DNA of 64,000 bases from Photobacterium sanguinicancri (GTDB taxonomy: Bacteria; Pseudomonadota; Gammaproteobacteria; Enterobacterales; Vibrionaceae). Positions 8,461 to 25,232 of the stretch are shown piece after piece. The stretch's first letter is position 1, and every line of letters starts with the position of its first letter. The position numbers were made by a program, and so were the translations under genes. The notes below the pieces were generated by a model. It was not told the DNA's origin. It did no database searches and saw only the letters and a list, made by a program, of their open reading frames with translations. The stretch is from NCBI RefSeq assembly GCF_024346675.1, contig NZ_AP024850.1:620001-684000 (forward strand), read 5' to 3'.

Positions 8461-10017
8461 TTAAGCTATCCAGCTTAAGCGGTTAGAGCCGGTACTTTTA
8501 GCGGTATTGAGTGCTTTTTGGGTGCGTTCAATAATATTCGGCGGGGTATCGTTGGTGTCGAACATGGTCGCACCAATTGAAACGGTAATTGAGACTTGTT
8601 GATCACGAAAATGAAACGGTAGATGAGCAACCGCTTCTCGAATGGCATTGATGCGTTTCGTTCGCTCTTCTTCTGTGGTATCTGGCATGATCACCATGAA
8701 CTTATCGCCATCAAAACGGGCAATAAAATCGGTGTCATCAAGGCTCTGATGAATAGTACGAGCGATGATTTTTAGCGCTTTATCACCCGCGACATAACCA
8801 AAGTTAACATTGGTTTCTTTGAAATTATCGACATCAAGCAGAGCGACACATAACGGGTGTTGGTATCGCAACCAGCGGCGGTATTCATGTTCTAGGCGAT
8901 CGTTAAATGCAGCACGGTTATACACCTTGGTTAAATGGTCTAAGAACATTTTTCGTTCTTGGTTGTTTAATGACTGGTGATGTTCGGCCGTTTTTTCATA
9001 AAGTGTAATGACTTTATTTTCGTTATATGCCAATTGATCCAATAACTCGTGCTCTCGTTTTTCGAGCGCGTGAGTACGTTCAATTAAGACCTGTAATTCA
9101 GAGCTGATTGTTTCAAGCTGTGGTCGCCATGTCTCGAGGCTTTCTTGTTCTTTCAACCCTTGCTTCATCTGCTGAGATAAGGCTGAGACCCCTGATATCA
9201 TGGTATGACGTTGTTCGATTAAGGCGCTTGATTGGTCTACCGCCTGATGGGTGGTTTTTTTTAGCGCAGCCAAATCACTGTGTACGCCATCGACAAATTT
9301 TTGAGTCGAGCGACGATCTTGGTGATGGCCGTTAATCACTAATCGTAAAATAATTAATGCGTGCTCTACGAGTCTTTCTGCTGTGACACCAGCCAATAGC
9401 TTATTACGAATATCTAGCAGCGTGGCGCTGTTGTCATCAGTAAAATCTAGATCGGTGATAAGGTGCTGTAATTCGCAGCTAAGATGAATCAATACATCTT
9501 GATCTATGCTGTTACTTTGATGCTGATTGGTTGAGTTTGATAGTAGTTTAACCGCGCTTTCGTACAGTTCTAATAGGCGTATGAGACGGTTGTGATTATC
9601 ACTTAAACTATCAGGTGATGCTGACAATATATTGCGAAGGTCACGTTTGAGCTGCGGAGGTAAGCCACGAACCCGATTTAGCGTATCACCGCTTAAGTGA
9701 ATATGTTGCTCAAGGTTTTGGCTTGCTTGTTCGGTGAGTGCCGCTTGACGAGTGACGAGACGCTCAATTAAGGCTAATCGTGGGATCAGCTTACTGATGT
9801 CTTTGGGTTGCTCTAGGTCGTGGCGTAGCTCAATCAGTTTTAGGTCAAGCTCCTGGTCTATCCCTCGGCATGCGACAGATAGACGGGTGATCAGGCGCTT
9901 TAAAATGACAATCTCGCGACGCGACTTGAGTGAGGCATCACGGAAAGATAGTTGAGCTTGGTCTAGGCGCTGTTTCAATTTACTCACTTCAGAAACAACG
10001 GCATTTACGTCAGTCAC
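8461..10017 (-). CDS. degenerate GGDEF-domain protein, CdgG-like
   Basis: 518 residues without an evident membrane segment. About 1-340 is helical, rich in heptad-like Leu/Gln/Glu and probably coiled-coil. A GGDEF fold covers about 350-518. The signature is DGDKF (436-440) instead of GGDEF. The guanine-contacting Asp of NDxxGH is Val (NVNFGY), and the inhibitory RxxD is DDTD (427-430). Losing both catalytic and allosteric residues argues against diguanylate cyclase activity, so a scaffold or nucleotide-sensing role is more likely. V. cholerae has a degenerate GGDEF protein, CdgG, in the same gene neighbourhood (near ppnN and queF). I infer orthology from memory of that synteny, not from an alignment. 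Confidence 0.85.
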   Translation of the reverse strand: MTDVNAVVSEVSKLKQRLDQAQLSFRDASLKSRREIVILKRLITRLSVACRGIDQELDLKLIELRHDLEQPKDISKLIPRLALIERLVTRQAALTEQASQNLEQHIHLSGDTLNRVRGLPPQLKRDLRNILSASPDSLSDNHNRLIRLLELYESAVKLLSNSTNQHQSNSIDQDVLIHLSCELQHLITDLDFTDDNSATLLDIRNKLLAGVTAERLVEHALIILRLVINGHHQDRRSTQKFVDGVHSDLAALKKTTHQAVDQSSALIEQRHTMISGVSALSQQMKQGLKEQESLETWRPQLETISSELQVLIERTHALEKREHELLDQLAYNENKVITLYEKTAEHHQSLNNQERKMFLDHLTKVYNRAAFNDRLEHEYRRWLRYQHPLCVALLDVDNFKETNVNFGYVAGDKALKIIARTIHQSLDDTDFIARFDGDKFMVIMPDTTEEERTKRINAIREAVAHLPFHFRDQQVSITVSIGATMFDTNDTPPNIIERTQKALNTAKSTGSNRLSWIA

Positions 10018-10152
10018 GGGGGTAAGGCATACCTAAAGCAATCGCTATATAGAGTTAAAGGGGCAAACGAAACCAATAATATGGCGCGTATAGTAACAAA
10101 AACATAGTAACTACTATTGATGTAGCGGCATTAATTTCAAATTCTGGATGAT

Positions 10153-12432
10153 TTAATTGACCTTATTATCAGAATCGTGATCATTATTCCAACAAAATTC
10201 CAAGCTTGTCGATGCTTGTACTTTGACTAACCCATTATTAATACCTTGCAGACAGGCTTTACGAATATTATCACTCGCAAAACTGGCTGCTGGAGCTGCA
10301 TCTATTGCACTTAAGTGAACCCATTGACTTCCTTCCTCTTTTTTATTGTTTAAACGGGCAGCATTGGTTGCCATGAGTAGTATGTCGATCAGCTCTTGGT
10401 CGTTAATTGCCGTATAAGCACGGGGTAAAAATGGGTATTCAGCCATCCCAATGCGGACTTTGTTGTCGATGTGTCGATCGGCGATAAAACCATCAATTAA
10501 TTGCTGAATAGAATCAGCGAGCTGAGCGGGTTCACTGTTTAAACGCGAGTTGGGCTCTATGTACAAGAACATCGCATCAGAGAAATGATAAAGGCGTGCT
10601 GGCTTGCACACTTCATTTTGGAAGTAAGCGCCGAGCTGACGTTCCATCTCTAACCCTTGTTGGTAGCCTCGTTCCAAGTAAATGTGTTTGAGAAATGGAA
10701 TTTCAACTAATGCAAAGCGTAAACGATCGCTAAGTGGTTCGTTAATGATGTCGCCTAAGTGCCATTGCTCGAAGTTAGCACTGCTTTGTTGCAGTGAATC
10801 GGGGAGGCGTGCATTGAGCATTCGCAGGTTTCTTAGTCCACTACGAGGGTGGGTGTAAAACTCGGTACGCAGCTGCTTAAAGCGATTTTGTAGCATATTT
10901 GCCACACTATGGCGGCGCCATAACACAATGCTCACAACCAGCAGTAAACTGATCAGGAAAATGCTCACTTGTTGCTGTTGGTAGAGGGATTTTTCACTCT
11001 CAAATTGCTGTCTCTCTAACTCTTCGAGCATTAAAGAGCGTTCCATCATGCGTTGCTGCTGCTTAAACACTTCGACATTGCTTTTTAGCTGTGTTTTTTG
11101 CTGGCGTTCAAACAATTGCTCATAACGACGCTGGCTGAGTAAAGCGTTGTAATAATCGCTATTTTGCTCAAAGGCTTGCGATAAAATGACTTCGCCTTGA
11201 AGTTGTAAGTTCAGCTGTCCAATTCGACTTGCCGCCAGTAGCCCTGATTGCAGGGTTGAAATGGCTTTCGCTATGTGTCCTTCAGCCAGTTGAAGTTTAC
11301 CCTCAAGTAAAAGTGTATCGGCATTTAATGCTTCGTTACCTGATCGCTTTGCCATTTGGCGTGCTTGCTGCAGATACTGTTCTGCTTTCGGGTAGTTATA
11401 AAGCTGAAGATATACACGTGCAATATTGAGGTATAGCTGCGATGAACGGCCATCGTGCTTTAACTGACTCTCTTGATCTAATGCATTAAAATAATGCACT
11501 AAGGCGAGGTTGTAGCGGCCTTGTTGTTCATAGATGGATGCAATAAGCGCGAGCGTTTTTGCCAGTGGTTGGGTGCGTTTGAAGTGCTCGAAAAATTCAC
11601 CCGCTTGGGTGGCGTGCTCTAAGGCTTTATCAAATACACTGCGCTGTTCAAATAGCGTCGCGAGTCCTAAATTCGCCACGGCGGTCTGCGCTTTGTTATC
11701 TTCTTCAACCGATAACCAATACCCGCTTAGTAGGCGATCCAGCGCCAAATCATAGTGGTTATATTTTAAGTAATGTTGACCCAGCGTGAGTTGGTACTCA
11801 ATTAAGGCTGTAGTGTTATCTAAATTGGTTAATAAGCGTTTCGCTTTGCTAAAGAGCTTTTCGGCTTTTTCTTCAGTACCCACGGCTGATTCAATCACAG
11901 CGCGCTGCAATAGCGTTTCGTATTGCAATACCTTCACTTGTTTGGTCAATTTGAGTGGCTCAGATTGGCTAATGGTTGTATCTATATTGTCGAGTAATTT
12001 TAAGGCCAACACACTGTTTTGCAGGTTCTCCCAATAGATCTTTGAATAGATCAATTGAGTTTCAATAATGGTGAATTCGAGTTCATTTTCTATCGCGAGT
12101 TTAATCGCTTTTTTGATGGTGCTAATAGCGCGATCAGGCTGATTAAGCAGCGAGTGAGCACGCGCCTTAATTTGCATCGCATTGACGGTATTTAGTGGGG
12201 TGCGCACCGAGTGATCGGTATCATCATTTACATGGACACGTGAGCTTTCAGTTTGCTCACTCATGCGGCGCTGTTTTAAATAGCGATCGGTGATTCGGAG
12301 TGATTTTTCAGGGCTCGTTTGCAGTAGCTCATGTGCTTCCGCAAGGATCGGTGTTGTATAGATTTTTGCTGAAGCGCTAAAAGGAAGGAAACAGATTAGG
12401 AAAGCGCAAAAAAGCCAGCGGCAAAAATTCAT
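10153..12432 (-). CDS. TPR-repeat membrane protein with degenerate GGDEF-like domain
   Basis: 759 residues. A signal peptide (LFCAFLICFLPFSASA) is followed by a periplasmic array of tetratricopeptide-type helix pairs at about 30-470, for example YDLALDRLLSGYWLS and YPKAEQYLQQARQMAK. A membrane span covers 489-505 and a cytoplasmic C-terminal domain about 510-735. That domain keeps GGDEF-fold features (RSGLRNLRML near the start, VRIGMAEYP as the strand before the last helix), but the signature position reads FSDAMF (617-622), so it cannot be an active cyclase. It resembles sensors that pass a periplasmic signal across the membrane. It lies directly upstream of the other degenerate GGDEF gene on the same strand, with 135 bp between them. 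Function unknown. Confidence 0.78.
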   Translation of the reverse strand: MNFCRWLFCAFLICFLPFSASAKIYTTPILAEAHELLQTSPEKSLRITDRYLKQRRMSEQTESSRVHVNDDTDHSVRTPLNTVNAMQIKARAHSLLNQPDRAISTIKKAIKLAIENELEFTIIETQLIYSKIYWENLQNSVLALKLLDNIDTTISQSEPLKLTKQVKVLQYETLLQRAVIESAVGTEEKAEKLFSKAKRLLTNLDNTTALIEYQLTLGQHYLKYNHYDLALDRLLSGYWLSVEEDNKAQTAVANLGLATLFEQRSVFDKALEHATQAGEFFEHFKRTQPLAKTLALIASIYEQQGRYNLALVHYFNALDQESQLKHDGRSSQLYLNIARVYLQLYNYPKAEQYLQQARQMAKRSGNEALNADTLLLEGKLQLAEGHIAKAISTLQSGLLAASRIGQLNLQLQGEVILSQAFEQNSDYYNALLSQRRYEQLFERQQKTQLKSNVEVFKQQQRMMERSLMLEELERQQFESEKSLYQQQQVSIFLISLLLVVSIVLWRRHSVANMLQNRFKQLRTEFYTHPRSGLRNLRMLNARLPDSLQQSSANFEQWHLGDIINEPLSDRLRFALVEIPFLKHIYLERGYQQGLEMERQLGAYFQNEVCKPARLYHFSDAMFLYIEPNSRLNSEPAQLADSIQQLIDGFIADRHIDNKVRIGMAEYPFLPRAYTAINDQELIDILLMATNAARLNNKKEEGSQWVHLSAIDAAPAASFASDNIRKACLQGINNGLVKVQASTSLEFCWNNDHDSDNKVN

Positions 12433-13394: not shown

Positions 13395-13457
13395 ACTGTC
13401 TTGGACACTCTTGGATTAGAATATCCAAAGTTTACTTAATCTTTAATGAGGTTGCGA

Positions 13458-14012
13458 ATGAATCATCCAGTTACGGACGCATTATCTGATTTTTCGGTCC
13501 GTTTTATGAAAGCGTGGCACGATGCAGGGCATACATTTCCCCGTAGTGAGGACTTAGTCGGACTTCACTCGCCATGTGTACAACATGATTCGGGTGATGA
13601 CGTGACTTGGCAGGCAGTAACACGTGAACCTATGGGTGACCTAGCGGCAGTCGAGAAAGGAATTGAGCTGACACTGCATGAAGATATTGTTGCTTTTTAT
13701 GCCAGCCAGTACAGCGGTGATATGGCGGCGAAGTTTGGCGATCTTGAATTTGATTTATTGCAATCTTTCAGTGAAGACGACACTTTGCGCTTACAAGAGA
13801 ATATTCTGGGCCACTTAGTGACACAGCGTCGGTTAAAACTAAAGCCTACCGTTTTTATCGGTGCACTGGCTGTTGAAGATAAAGTGATTTCTATTTGTAA
13901 TATGACGGGGCAGGTTATTTTAGAAACCTTAGGTAAAGATATACGTGATGTGCTCGCTGCGGATGTAGAAAGCTTTTTGACTAAGCTTGAACCTATCGTA
14001 CGTGAGGATTAA
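13458..14012 (+). CDS. syd: SecY-interacting protein Syd
   Basis: Peripheral cytoplasmic protein that binds SecY in E. coli. 184 residues (E. coli 181). Recognised by the conserved FGDLEFDLLQSFSEDD and QENILGHLVTQRRLKL segments. An ATG at 13446 would add four residues, but GAGG at 13448-13451 is correctly placed for 13458. In E. coli the csrB gene lies between syd and yqcC, and the same interval here holds two csrB-like genes. Confidence 0.93.
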   Translation: MNHPVTDALSDFSVRFMKAWHDAGHTFPRSEDLVGLHSPCVQHDSGDDVTWQAVTREPMGDLAAVEKGIELTLHEDIVAFYASQYSGDMAAKFGDLEFDLLQSFSEDDTLRLQENILGHLVTQRRLKLKPTVFIGALAVEDKVISICNMTGQVILETLGKDIRDVLAADVESFLTKLEPIVRED

Positions 14013-14897: not shown

Positions 14898-15170
14898 TCA
14901 ATCTTTGCTTTCAAGCGCGGTGAGACGAGCTGTTAATGTTGCGACTTGCTGTTCTAGCTGTGCGATTCGCTGTTCTGTTGTAAATGTTGGCGATGTTTTT
15001 TCAATCTTAGGCACCTTGGCATTTTTCTTCCAAGCTTGTAGTGCCTTGATGATTAATGGCATAGGTAATGGTGACGTTAGGCGTGACTTTATTAAAGCAA
15101 CCGATGGCTCTTTCCCTTCGGTAATCAAGGATTGAATCGCTTGTTCTAAATCTTGGCTGATGTCTGACAT
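14898..15170 (-). CDS. small protein with C-terminal coiled coil
   Basis: 90 residues. The N-terminal half is compact and resembles KfrA-type DNA-binding segments (GKEPSVALIKSRL...IIKALQAWK), which is a weak likeness only. A short linker leads to a heptad segment, EQRIAQLEQQVATLTARL. The start has AAGGA at a good distance. It lies 38 bp downstream of the next gene on the same strand. I do not recognise the function. Confidence 0.68.
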   Translation of the reverse strand: MSDISQDLEQAIQSLITEGKEPSVALIKSRLTSPLPMPLIIKALQAWKKNAKVPKIEKTSPTFTTEQRIAQLEQQVATLTARLTALESKD

Positions 15171-15664: not shown

Positions 15665-15682
15665 TGTGCGAGATCTCTTACA
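15665..15682 (+). promoter_or_regulatory. GacA/UvrY/VarA-type box upstream of csrB1
   Basis: TGTGCGAGATCTCTTACA matches the GacA upstream-activating palindrome TGTAAGAGATCTCTTACA at 16 of 18 positions. The centre lies about 176 bp before the predicted csrB1 start, a distance typical of csrB/rsm genes. The same 18 bases recur before csrB2. Confidence 0.82.
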
Positions 15683-15817: not shown

Positions 15818-15845
15818 TTGTTGGGCTATCGAAATCACGTAATAT
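15818..15845 (+). promoter_or_regulatory. csrB1 promoter
   Basis: TTGTTG (15818-15823), a 16-bp spacer, then TAATAT (15840-15845). It predicts a start near 15850, just before a GTGTC/GACAC stem. CGTAAT and the following GTGTC are shared with the csrB2 promoter region. Confidence 0.6.
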
Positions 15846-16014
15846 CTACCGTGTCAGAGGGACACTGGCATTGGAACTTGGAAACGGTTTTTGGAACGAA
15901 CCGACCTCAGGATGAGGGAAGTAAGCCGGAGCGCTTACTCGCTAGGATAGCGAAAGGACAACGAACGGATACGTTAATGCGGGCTGGATGCTGGCTGAAA
16001 GGATACAAAGGATC

Positions 16015-16268
16015 ACTTCAGGATGAAGTCAGGGAACACCTCTAGGATAGAGGCATAAGGGATTCACTTCAGGACGAAGTAAGGGAACACCTCTAGGATA
16101 GAGGCATAAGGGATTCACTTCAGGACGAAGTAAGGGAACACCTCTAGGATAGAGGCATAAGGGATTCACTTCAGGATGAAGTAAGGGAACACCTCTAGGA
16201 CAGAGGCATAAAGGATTCACTTCAGGATGAAGTCAGGGAACACCTCTAGGACAGAGGCATAAAGGATC
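16015..16268 (+). repeat. 51-bp tandem repeat inside csrB1, five units
   Basis: Units begin at ACTTCAGGA at 16015, 16066, 16117, 16168 and 16219, and a sixth partial unit at 16269. Periods are 51, 51, 51, 51 and 50. Each unit has two GGA-loop hairpins (ACTTCAGGAYGAAGT and CCTCTAGGAYAGAGG) and two unpaired GGA sites. Units differ by only a few bases, mainly T/C in the loop, with paired arms unchanged. Confidence 0.95.
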
Positions 16269-16452
16269 ACTTCAGGATGAAGTAAGGGATACCTCCAGGA
16301 TGGAGCGAGAGTCGACATAGGATGTGGCGACGGGTCAAGGAACAACCGAAGGACAACTCTAGGATAGAGATTAGGAATTACGCTTGGAAATAAGCTAATC
16401 ATGGATTGATGCAGGGAGCACCATAGTAGCGGGATTGCTGCATGTAAGACCT

Positions 16453-16487
16453 AAGGGCGCAACAGAAATGTTGCGCCCGTTCTTTTT
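16453..16487 (+). terminator. csrB1 terminator
   Basis: GGGCGCAAC (16455-16463) pairs with GTTGCGCCC (16470-16478), then a T-rich tail. Confidence 0.9.
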
Positions 16488-16648
16488 CTACTATTTAGAT
16501 CTATCTTGTTCGCCTCCACGTTTATCTGTGTCTTCTCTTTTTACCGCTATTTCCTACTCTTATTTTGCTTTTACTGCTGTTTTACTTTGTTCATTCATTG
16601 TATTGATTGGTTTGGCTATCGTTACCCCCTACCAATATCTGATCACTT

Positions 16649-16666
16649 TGTGCGAGATCTCTTACA
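16649..16666 (+). promoter_or_regulatory. GacA/UvrY/VarA-type box upstream of csrB2
   Basis: Identical over 18 bases to the box at 15665 (TGTGCGAGATCTCTTACA) and again centred about 176 bp before the predicted RNA start. The flanking bases are also similar (ACAA then GTGTGGGA versus ATTGTGGGA). Confidence 0.82.
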
Positions 16667-16801
16667 AAGGTGTGGGATAAAGCAATGATTCCTTGCTATA
16701 AAAGAGATGCTGACTTTATTAAATTACTGTTATTTATAGCTTTATGTTTTTATGGTCTTTTTCTTAATATAAAGATACGAATAAGTTTTTTCTTACATGG
16801 G

Positions 16802-16829
16802 TTCAATCTGCAGTGGAGCAGCGTAATCT
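16802..16829 (+). promoter_or_regulatory. csrB2 promoter
   Basis: TTCAAT (16802-16807), a 16-bp spacer, then TAATCT (16824-16829). It is weaker than the csrB1 promoter by inspection, as expected for an activator-dependent gene. The GTGTC that follows aligns with the csrB1 start. Confidence 0.5.
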
Positions 16830-16833
16830 TATT

Positions 16834-17276
16834 GGTGTCGGAAGGAACTGACGGAACGGAACAGGAAATAGCCAAGGATTTGGGCAGTCTCAGGATGAGA
16901 CCGATGTATTAGGATGATATATCGTACATGGACTGTGAAGGGAAAGCCGAAGGATTCGGTAATAGTAAGTTAGGATTACTTACTGGTCAGGATGACAAAT
17001 GGACCACTTCAGGATGAAGTTAGGGACACCTCTAGGATAGAGGCATAAAGGAACACTTCAGGACGAAGTAAAGGACACCTCCAGGACGGAGACGAGAGTC
17101 GGATCAGGATGAAACGACGGGTCAAGGTAAGGCCAAAGGACAACTTCAGGATGAAGAATTAAGGATTACGCTGACGGATTACAGCGATTCAATGGATGGA
17201 TGCAGGGAGCACCATAGTAGCGGGATTGCTGCAAGTAAGACCTCAGGGCGCGACGCAAGTCGCGCCCGCTCTTTTT
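16834..17276 (+). ncRNA. csrB2: CsrB-family small RNA, second copy
   Basis: RNA of about 440 nt, the usual CsrB size, with about 32 GGA triplets. Several sit in loops (CTCAGGATGAG, ACTTCAGGATGAAGT, CTCTAGGATAGAG, CTCCAGGACGGAG). It has one copy of the unit that is repeated five times in csrB1 (starts 17006 and 17055). It shares the segment ending ACGAGAGTCG/ACGGGTCAAGG and the 3' module with csrB1. It should act as a second CsrA sponge under the same activator. A tandem duplication of the whole gene, including its control region, explains the arrangement. Confidence 0.9.
17244..17276 (+). terminator. csrB2 terminator
   Basis: GGGCGCGAC (17246-17254) pairs with GTCGCGCCC (17259-17267) around GCAA, followed by CTCTTTTT. 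The stem differs from that of csrB1 at paired positions (AA/TT versus CG pairs), so pairing has been kept. Confidence 0.9.
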
Positions 17277-17336
17277 GGGGAAGGAGCGGGAGCGATTCGA
17301 GCCCAATACCAAGACAGACAGATATGACCTATTGGT

Positions 17337-17505
17337 ATTATACCAATCTAACTAAGCAACTGATCGTTCTTGCTGGTTAAAATCAATGATAACTGCGTTG
17401 TAGATTTTGTAGATAGAACAACTAGCTATCCGCAATCTACGCCTTGTTCTCAGTGATTTTTCCTGCGCAATCACCTGATCATTTACTTACCCAGATTGGT
17501 ATTAC
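17337..17505. repeat. MITE-like long-hairpin element
   Basis: The ends TACCAATCT (17341-17349) and AGATTGGTA (17493-17501) are inverted repeats. The similarity continues inward on both arms (TAAG..AA.TGATC, TTGC, AAAATCA, GCGT..GTAGATT), so the whole 160 bp can fold into one imperfect hairpin. There is no open frame. It resembles the short intergenic repeats common in Vibrionaceae, but no second full copy is in this window. Confidence 0.6.
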
Positions 17506-17534
17506 AAAAAAAGCAGCCTTGGCTGCTTTTTTTG
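17504..17534. terminator. bidirectional terminator downstream of the DUF3301 gene
   Basis: AAGCAGCC (17511-17518) pairs with GGCTGCTT (17521-17528) with A- and T-runs outside. It serves the minus-strand gene that ends at 17568 and blocks rightward readthrough. Confidence 0.83.
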
Positions 17535-17567
17535 TGTCTGCTATTTAGTGATTGGTCGATATTAGGG

Positions 17568-19072: not shown

Positions 19073-19393
19073 GTGGATAAATACCTTCATTGCCAACAAT
19101 TACTGGGAAAGTTGCAGCAAACTATGCAACAACATCAACAATGGGATGCGTGTTCACCGAGTGCGCAGGCATTGGCAAGTATTGAGCCGTTTGCGATAGA
19201 TACCTTGTCGTGCTCCCAGTGGTTACAGTGGATTTTCATCCCTAAAATGACCCTATTGGTGAGTCAGCATTTACCGCTGCCTAGTCAGTTTGAGATTGCC
19301 CCCTATGTGGAAGAGGCGATGAAAAACGAACAAGGTTACGAGGCTATTCTTGCTGTGTGCCATGAATTCGATCATTTACTAAAAGCGAAGTGA
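19073..19393 (+). CDS. yqcC: YqcC family protein
   Basis: 106 residues, helical. The family core LQWIFIPKMTLLV and LPLPSQFEIAPYVEEAM matches E. coli YqcC. The start is GTG at 19073. The ATG five bases upstream is in another frame. It is 4 bp before truC and forms the yqcC-truC-yqcA set of E. coli. Function unknown. Confidence 0.88.
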   Translation: MDKYLHCQQLLGKLQQTMQQHQQWDACSPSAQALASIEPFAIDTLSCSQWLQWIFIPKMTLLVSQHLPLPSQFEIAPYVEEAMKNEQGYEAILAVCHEFDHLLKAK

Positions 19394-24989: not shown

Positions 24990-25232
24990 TTGAGCTAGAT
25001 TTGGCTGGATTATTGGTGGCTTTATATGGTATAAAGCGCGCCGTAAATGTACTAATTCGGGTTGAAGCTTCGCACTTCACTGGGTTAGTTGCGTTTGCAC
25101 TAAACTTTATTAATCACTCACACATATCGACACATGCTCCGGGGTGCCCGCTGTTATTTCGCTTAGGCAAATGCAGAAAGAGGGTCGGTAGGATGGGATA
25201 TGTGGACGCCTAACCCCATAGAGGAATATTCA
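24990..25232 (+). promoter_or_regulatory. rpsB promoter and untranslated leader
   Basis: The map-rpsB gap of 318 bp holds no gene. TATAAA at 25030-25035, followed by the GC-rich stretch GCGCGCC, looks like a growth-rate-controlled ribosomal promoter with a discriminator. TGGATT at 25006 could be its -35 at 18 bp. About 190 bases of leader follow. In E. coli S2 represses rpsB-tsf through the leader, so this region is the expected target, but I could not model its fold with confidence. Confidence 0.5.

Follow-up and report, generated by a model that had tools for sequence, protein, structure and literature searches.

The window analyzed here is a stretch of 64,000 nucleotides (C1:620001-684000) from a two-contig genome of 5.55 Mb, with contigs of 3.70 and 1.85 Mb. 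It contains two complete genes of the CsrB family (RF00018), arranged head to tail on the + strand and hereafter called csrB1 and csrB2. csrB1 (15853..16487, start approximate) is a predicted small RNA of 635 nt with 46 GGA motifs, and csrB2 (16837..17276, start approximate) a predicted small RNA of 440 nt with 32 GGA; these lengths agree with the transcripts of about 640 and 440 nt put forward in an earlier note on this DNA. The pair is preceded by syd (13446..14012, +; Pfam PF07348), a gene of the DUF2310 family and an ORF of 90 aa, and DUF3301 and DUF3549 genes separate it from yqcC (19073..19393, +; Pfam PF04287, DUF446). The earlier note had located the two units in the syd-yqcC interval as in E. 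coli, which is right for the broad neighborhood but not in detail, since further genes intervene. The DUF2310 protein is 99% identical to its nearest named record, from Photobacterium sanguinicancri CAIM 1827; we take the host to be this species or a very close relative. The 90-aa ORF upstream of csrB1 (14898-15170, - strand) has no Pfam match.

The Rfam covariance search that the earlier note had proposed as a check of family membership (cmscan, gathering score 71) returned full-model CsrB matches for csrB2 (140.1 bits, 16965-17279) and for the 3' half of csrB1 (133.4 bits, 16173-16488). Because the csrB1 RNA is longer than the Rfam model, its 5' half gives a separate, third match that stays below threshold (51.7 bits, 15968-16172). 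As is typical of the RF00018 family, both genes are rich in GGA, a good part of it in hairpin loops, and both end in a rho-independent terminator. The GGA counts compare with 18.8 ± 3.5 (csrB1) and 13.5 ± 2.7 (csrB2) in mononucleotide shuffles, and 26 and 17 GGA, respectively, lie in loops on stems of at least four pairs, versus 5.8 ± 2.3 and 3.5 ± 1.6 in dinucleotide shuffles. Both RNAs also fold better than their shuffles (z = -5.15 for csrB1, with 0 of 20 shuffles as good; z = -5.67 for csrB2, 0 of 100), although the whole-RNA minimum-energy fold of csrB1 is of little use beyond this score, as its near-identical repeat units pair with one another. The intrinsic terminators lie at 16455..16487 (+; stem 16455-16478, then a T run) and 17246..17276 (+; stem 17246-17267, then a T run). 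Just as the earlier note had read from the letters, the 3' modules of csrB1 (16409..16461, +) and csrB2 (17200..17252, +) differ at two positions only; covariance, box and terminator scans agree with its description of two adjacent RNA genes, each with an activator box, a GGA-rich body, a 3' module and a terminator. One copy of csrA was found in the genome.

Each unit has its own control region. A UvrY/VarA-type activator box, TGTGCGAGATCTCTTACA, is the same in the csrB1 unit (15665..15682, +) and in the csrB2 unit (16649..16666, +), with no mismatch to our own consensus, and in both it lies 188 bp before the start motif. A role for the csrB1 box in activation may be inferred by analogy with the UvrY box of Shewanella oneidensis, given as TGTAAGN6CTTACA in PMC3171408. 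An alignment of 136 upstream regions shows conservation of the box, of a GTAATxT element and of the start region, and partial conservation of a TGTGGG motif after the box. The -10-like TAATAT of csrB1 (15840..15845, +) and TAATCT of csrB2 (16824..16829, +; within a conserved GTAATCT) both belong to the GTAATxT element. The idea that each unit has its own promoter is thus favored by a conserved element before each start, but no promoter on the + strand was returned by a scan for the sigma-70 consensus. Our start-motif pattern missed 35 of the 136 boxed rows (hand count), which limits the support for a fixed spacing to part of these genes.

Neighboring csrB genes are the rule in this genus and not special to this genome. 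A CsrB match was found by Rfam search in 51 of 52 congeneric genomes (this one included), and at least 43 of the 52 have at least two above-threshold matches lying no more than about 3 kb apart on the same contig (hand count); a family-wide search, used for breadth, gave a match in 143 of 150 genomes. At the DUF2310 gene, pattern searches counted by hand found one to three csrB copies in 18 of 21 named Photobacterium loci (in the other three the sequence ends before the csrB place) and one or two copies in six Enterovibrio and three Grimontia loci. The 3'-module pattern found no csrB at the DUF2310 gene in 42 of 43 loci labelled Vibrio (hand count). This pattern undercounts: in G007, G015, G016 and G035 it reports one copy where Rfam gives two close matches. 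The remaining Vibrio-labelled locus (L135, labelled Vibrio sp. Of7-15) has, unlike the other 42, two tandem csrB genes at the DUF2310 place. Beside the DUF2310 gene in Ferrimonas loci and one locus labelled Marinobacter nauticus (L161, L162, L165 and L166), we observed minus-strand stretches with 17-19 GGA per 250 bases, perhaps csrB genes on the opposite strand.

Two further CsrB matches lie elsewhere in the genome. A third csrB gene, with its own box and an above-threshold score of 127.5 bits, is present on the second contig (L003, G000:C2:183511-183823), between genes for a small multidrug-resistance-type (SMR) transporter and an MFS transporter. A fourth, weak match (L004, G000:C1:3567826-3568032, minus strand; 46.4 bits, below threshold) is flanked on one side by a cytochrome c gene whose neighbor encodes a GTPase (MMR_HSR1; EngB/YihA in our reading), and on the other by an ORF next to yihI that we read as methyltransferase-like. 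The E. coli csrC gene lies between yihA and yihI, the corresponding place, and this match is probably the csrC of this genome.

The tandem arrangement in itself adds little, as such pairs have already been published for both Shewanella and Aliivibrio. The CsrB gene of E. coli (b4408, syd-yqcC) shares with csrB1 and csrB2 the RF00018 family, GGA hairpins, terminator and broad neighborhood, but it is a single gene of 369 nt with 22 GGA; CsrC, counted in the same way, has 14, and both counts are given likewise in PMC11882849. According to PMC3171408, the CsrB1 and CsrB2 genes of S. oneidensis are likewise neighbors with a UvrY box each, and both RNAs are seen on northern blots in a UvrY-dependent manner; unlike the Photobacterium pair, they have a transposase gene in between and predicted lengths of 420 and 421 bp. 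PMC6262261 describes adjacent csrB2 and csrB3 genes in Aliivibrio salmonicida, attributed to duplication, csrB3 being closest to csrB2 and thus recent, whereas csrB1 and csrB2 of P. sanguinicancri are old paralogs. The same paper reports csrB1-4 in Vibrio tasmaniensis, again multiple CsrB siblings in a member of the Vibrionaceae but scattered with different synteny, and four putative csrB copies in Photobacterium profundum, for which two CsrB transcripts are named in PMC3505737.

How old is the pair? The earlier note had considered tandem duplication of the whole unit, control region included, the simplest explanation, and we may ask whether this took place recently in the present lineage, with both copies kept for dosage and redundancy. 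The two genes are adjacent and co-oriented, have the same box and nearly the same 3' module, and near-identical neighbors do occur elsewhere in the genus, for example the two equal-scoring copies of G018. The gene bodies tell otherwise. Over the first 155 nt, csrB1 and csrB2 are 59% identical, just above chance (100 comparisons of shuffled csrB1 with csrB2 averaged 52% and never exceeded 57%), and their upstream stretches are 55% identical. Over the same 5' body, csrB1 is 94% and 80% identical to its orthologs in G050 and G019 (the latter presumably P. jeanii), and csrB2 96% and 86%. Furthermore, csrB2 is closer to the second-contig gene (74%) than to csrB1. The last 80 bases of the two genes are 85% identical; we read the common 3' module as conserved, which would carry no sign of recency.

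The same is seen in a tree built from 132 csrB rows after shortening of the arrays: csrB1 and csrB2 fall in two different starred sets, the former together with the first copies of G037, G050 and G019, the latter with the second copies of these genomes. This tree has several long end branches, of which the program warns, and we did not rely on deep placements; P. profundum-like genes in position 2 join the outgroup rows on such branches. In G025, G006 and G036, neighboring copies group by genome, from which recent duplication or gene conversion appears to occur elsewhere in the genus, though not at csrB1 and csrB2. We therefore rejected the view of the two genes as recent tandem duplicates, whose probability we rate as very low, and retain tandem duplication of the unit as an old event only.

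The extra length of csrB1, about 200 nt relative to csrB2, is due to a feature that the earlier note did not mention: a 51-bp unit, comprising two GGA hairpins, that is present in 5.8 tandem copies (16013..16305, +; Tandem Repeats Finder, 94% match). Folded alone, one unit forms two hairpins of 6 bp, each bearing GGA in its loop (-10.5 kcal/mol); along the array, the distances from one hairpin GGA to the next are 24 and 27 nt. We scored arrays, defined as at least 2.5 units with a period of 44-56 bp, in 132 of 138 extracted genes; six were dropped, two for want of a box and four for an implausible box distance. Arrays are present in 13 of 109 genes scored in the genus, from 12 genomes (this one, G037 and ten others). 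Of the 30 rows in the csrB1 clade, 7 have an array and 23 have none; arrays are also seen in 3 of 4 P. profundum-like position-2 rows and in 3 of 75 other genus rows, and three arrays outside the csrB1 clade come from G009 and G017. The 23 remaining rows, from other genera or other-place copies, contain none. As units vary among the groups in both sequence and period, several expansions seem to have taken place separately.

Across species, array length ranges from 2.8 to 7.5 units. G032, 7.5 units, stands beside G011 (4.5), G018 (3.5) and G031 (no array), and the 5' bodies of pairs compared among these four genomes are 93-99% identical despite the array differences. G032, which we take to be P. 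profundum SS9, has three tandem csrB copies, and the longest of these differs from csrB1 in its unit, which is of 50 bp and another sequence. No account of csrB repeats was found in the portions of the literature on csrB and repeats or length that were available; a prediction paper (Kulkarni and colleagues, NAR 2006) may mention the long P. profundum copy.

Array length also appears to vary within the species. The draft genome of the type strain, CAIM 1827T (G037, 570 contigs), belongs to the same species as the window strain according to the genome tool. In the two strains csrB2 is identical, csrB1 is identical outside the array, and substitutions are found upstream of each RNA. The csrB1 array is longer in the draft by 291 bases, with seven N inside it, flanked by sides of five and six units. 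Ungapped overlaps between these sides with less than 6% mismatch are possible over 29 bases (1 mismatch), 80 (0), 131 (5), 182 (6) and 233 (7). With the 80-base overlap, the excess becomes 291 minus 80 minus 7, or 204 bases, exactly four units, and we therefore estimate an array of about 9.8 units in the type strain, some four more than in the window strain.

This difference might be an artefact of the draft assembly, with its 570 contigs and its N within the array, and overlaps of 131, 182 or 233 bases would reduce the gain to three, two or one units. Yet the only ungapped overlap free of mismatches is the one that leaves exactly four, and differences between species include that of G032, where the array is part of a contig of 4.09 Mb. 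Repeats tend to be shortened and not lengthened in short-read drafts, which also counts against an artefact, and we consider such an origin rather unlikely.

Taken together, these observations lead us to regard as quite probable that the locus holds two anciently diverged, separately controlled CsrB genes, of which the csrB1 lineage has undergone repeat amplification. In the established Csr pathway, VarS/VarA activates such sRNAs, which titrate CsrA; in the same manner, the response regulator VarA/UvrY would bind the far-upstream box of each gene and turn both on. Their RNAs would then present many (A)GGA hairpins and sequester CsrA, thereby freeing its mRNA targets, and it is plausible that two such sponges raise CsrA-titrating capacity, as the earlier note had proposed. 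In the csrB1 lineage, tandem copies of a two-hairpin unit of about 50 bp have accumulated, presumably through slippage or unequal recombination, and as a result csrB1 transcripts would quickly come to differ in their number of CsrA sites between strains and species. One csrB1 transcript should carry more CsrA than one csrB2 transcript. We take csrB1 to be a putative CsrA sponge whose length, and with it, we propose, its valency, can evolve through the array.

What this length means for the cell can be viewed in two ways. We may hypothesize that csrB1 is a hypermutable, variable-number-tandem-repeat sponge, in which repeat number sets the CsrA dimers bound per transcript and strains tune the system by slippage and not by promoter change; we hold this to be possible but doubtful. 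Alternatively, the array may be neutral, slippage altering its length with no change in CsrA control thanks to buffering by the other csrB copies and by feedback, a view to which we give somewhat less than an even chance. Close relatives such as G031 live without an array, further csrB copies are present in the genome, and by analogy with V. tasmaniensis, where PMC6262261 describes redundancy and compensation among csrB copies, these could buffer any change in csrB1 length. Against neutrality, hairpin stems and GGA loops are kept in the units of the window strain's array, and arrays seem to have emerged in several groups that differ in unit sequence, although both facts are compatible with neutrality too. 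Under either view, the repeat array of csrB1, as a sponge of variable length, is the part worth following, more so than the tandem pair. RNAs that are conserved outside the array here form a natural allele series, with 2.8 to 7.5 units across species and perhaps 9.8 in the type strain. Such a series could show how strongly CsrA control depends on the valency of a sponge, as distinct from its expression level. If csrB1 does act in this way, it would exemplify an effect of repeat-number variation exerted through a small RNA that binds protein.

Other elements were observed in the window. Near the csrB pair, a sub-threshold STnc50 match (17500-17561, - strand; 27.9 versus 55 bits) lies over a terminator-like hairpin and is probably due to chance. 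Farther away we found a GcvB small RNA (2399-2591, - strand; RF00022, 94.5 bits), a t44 RNA (25099-25214, + strand; RF00127, 69.5 bits) and, at 8461-12432 on the - strand, a gene for a protein with a DGC-associated coil and a GGDEF domain, adjoined by a gene for a TPR-repeat protein.
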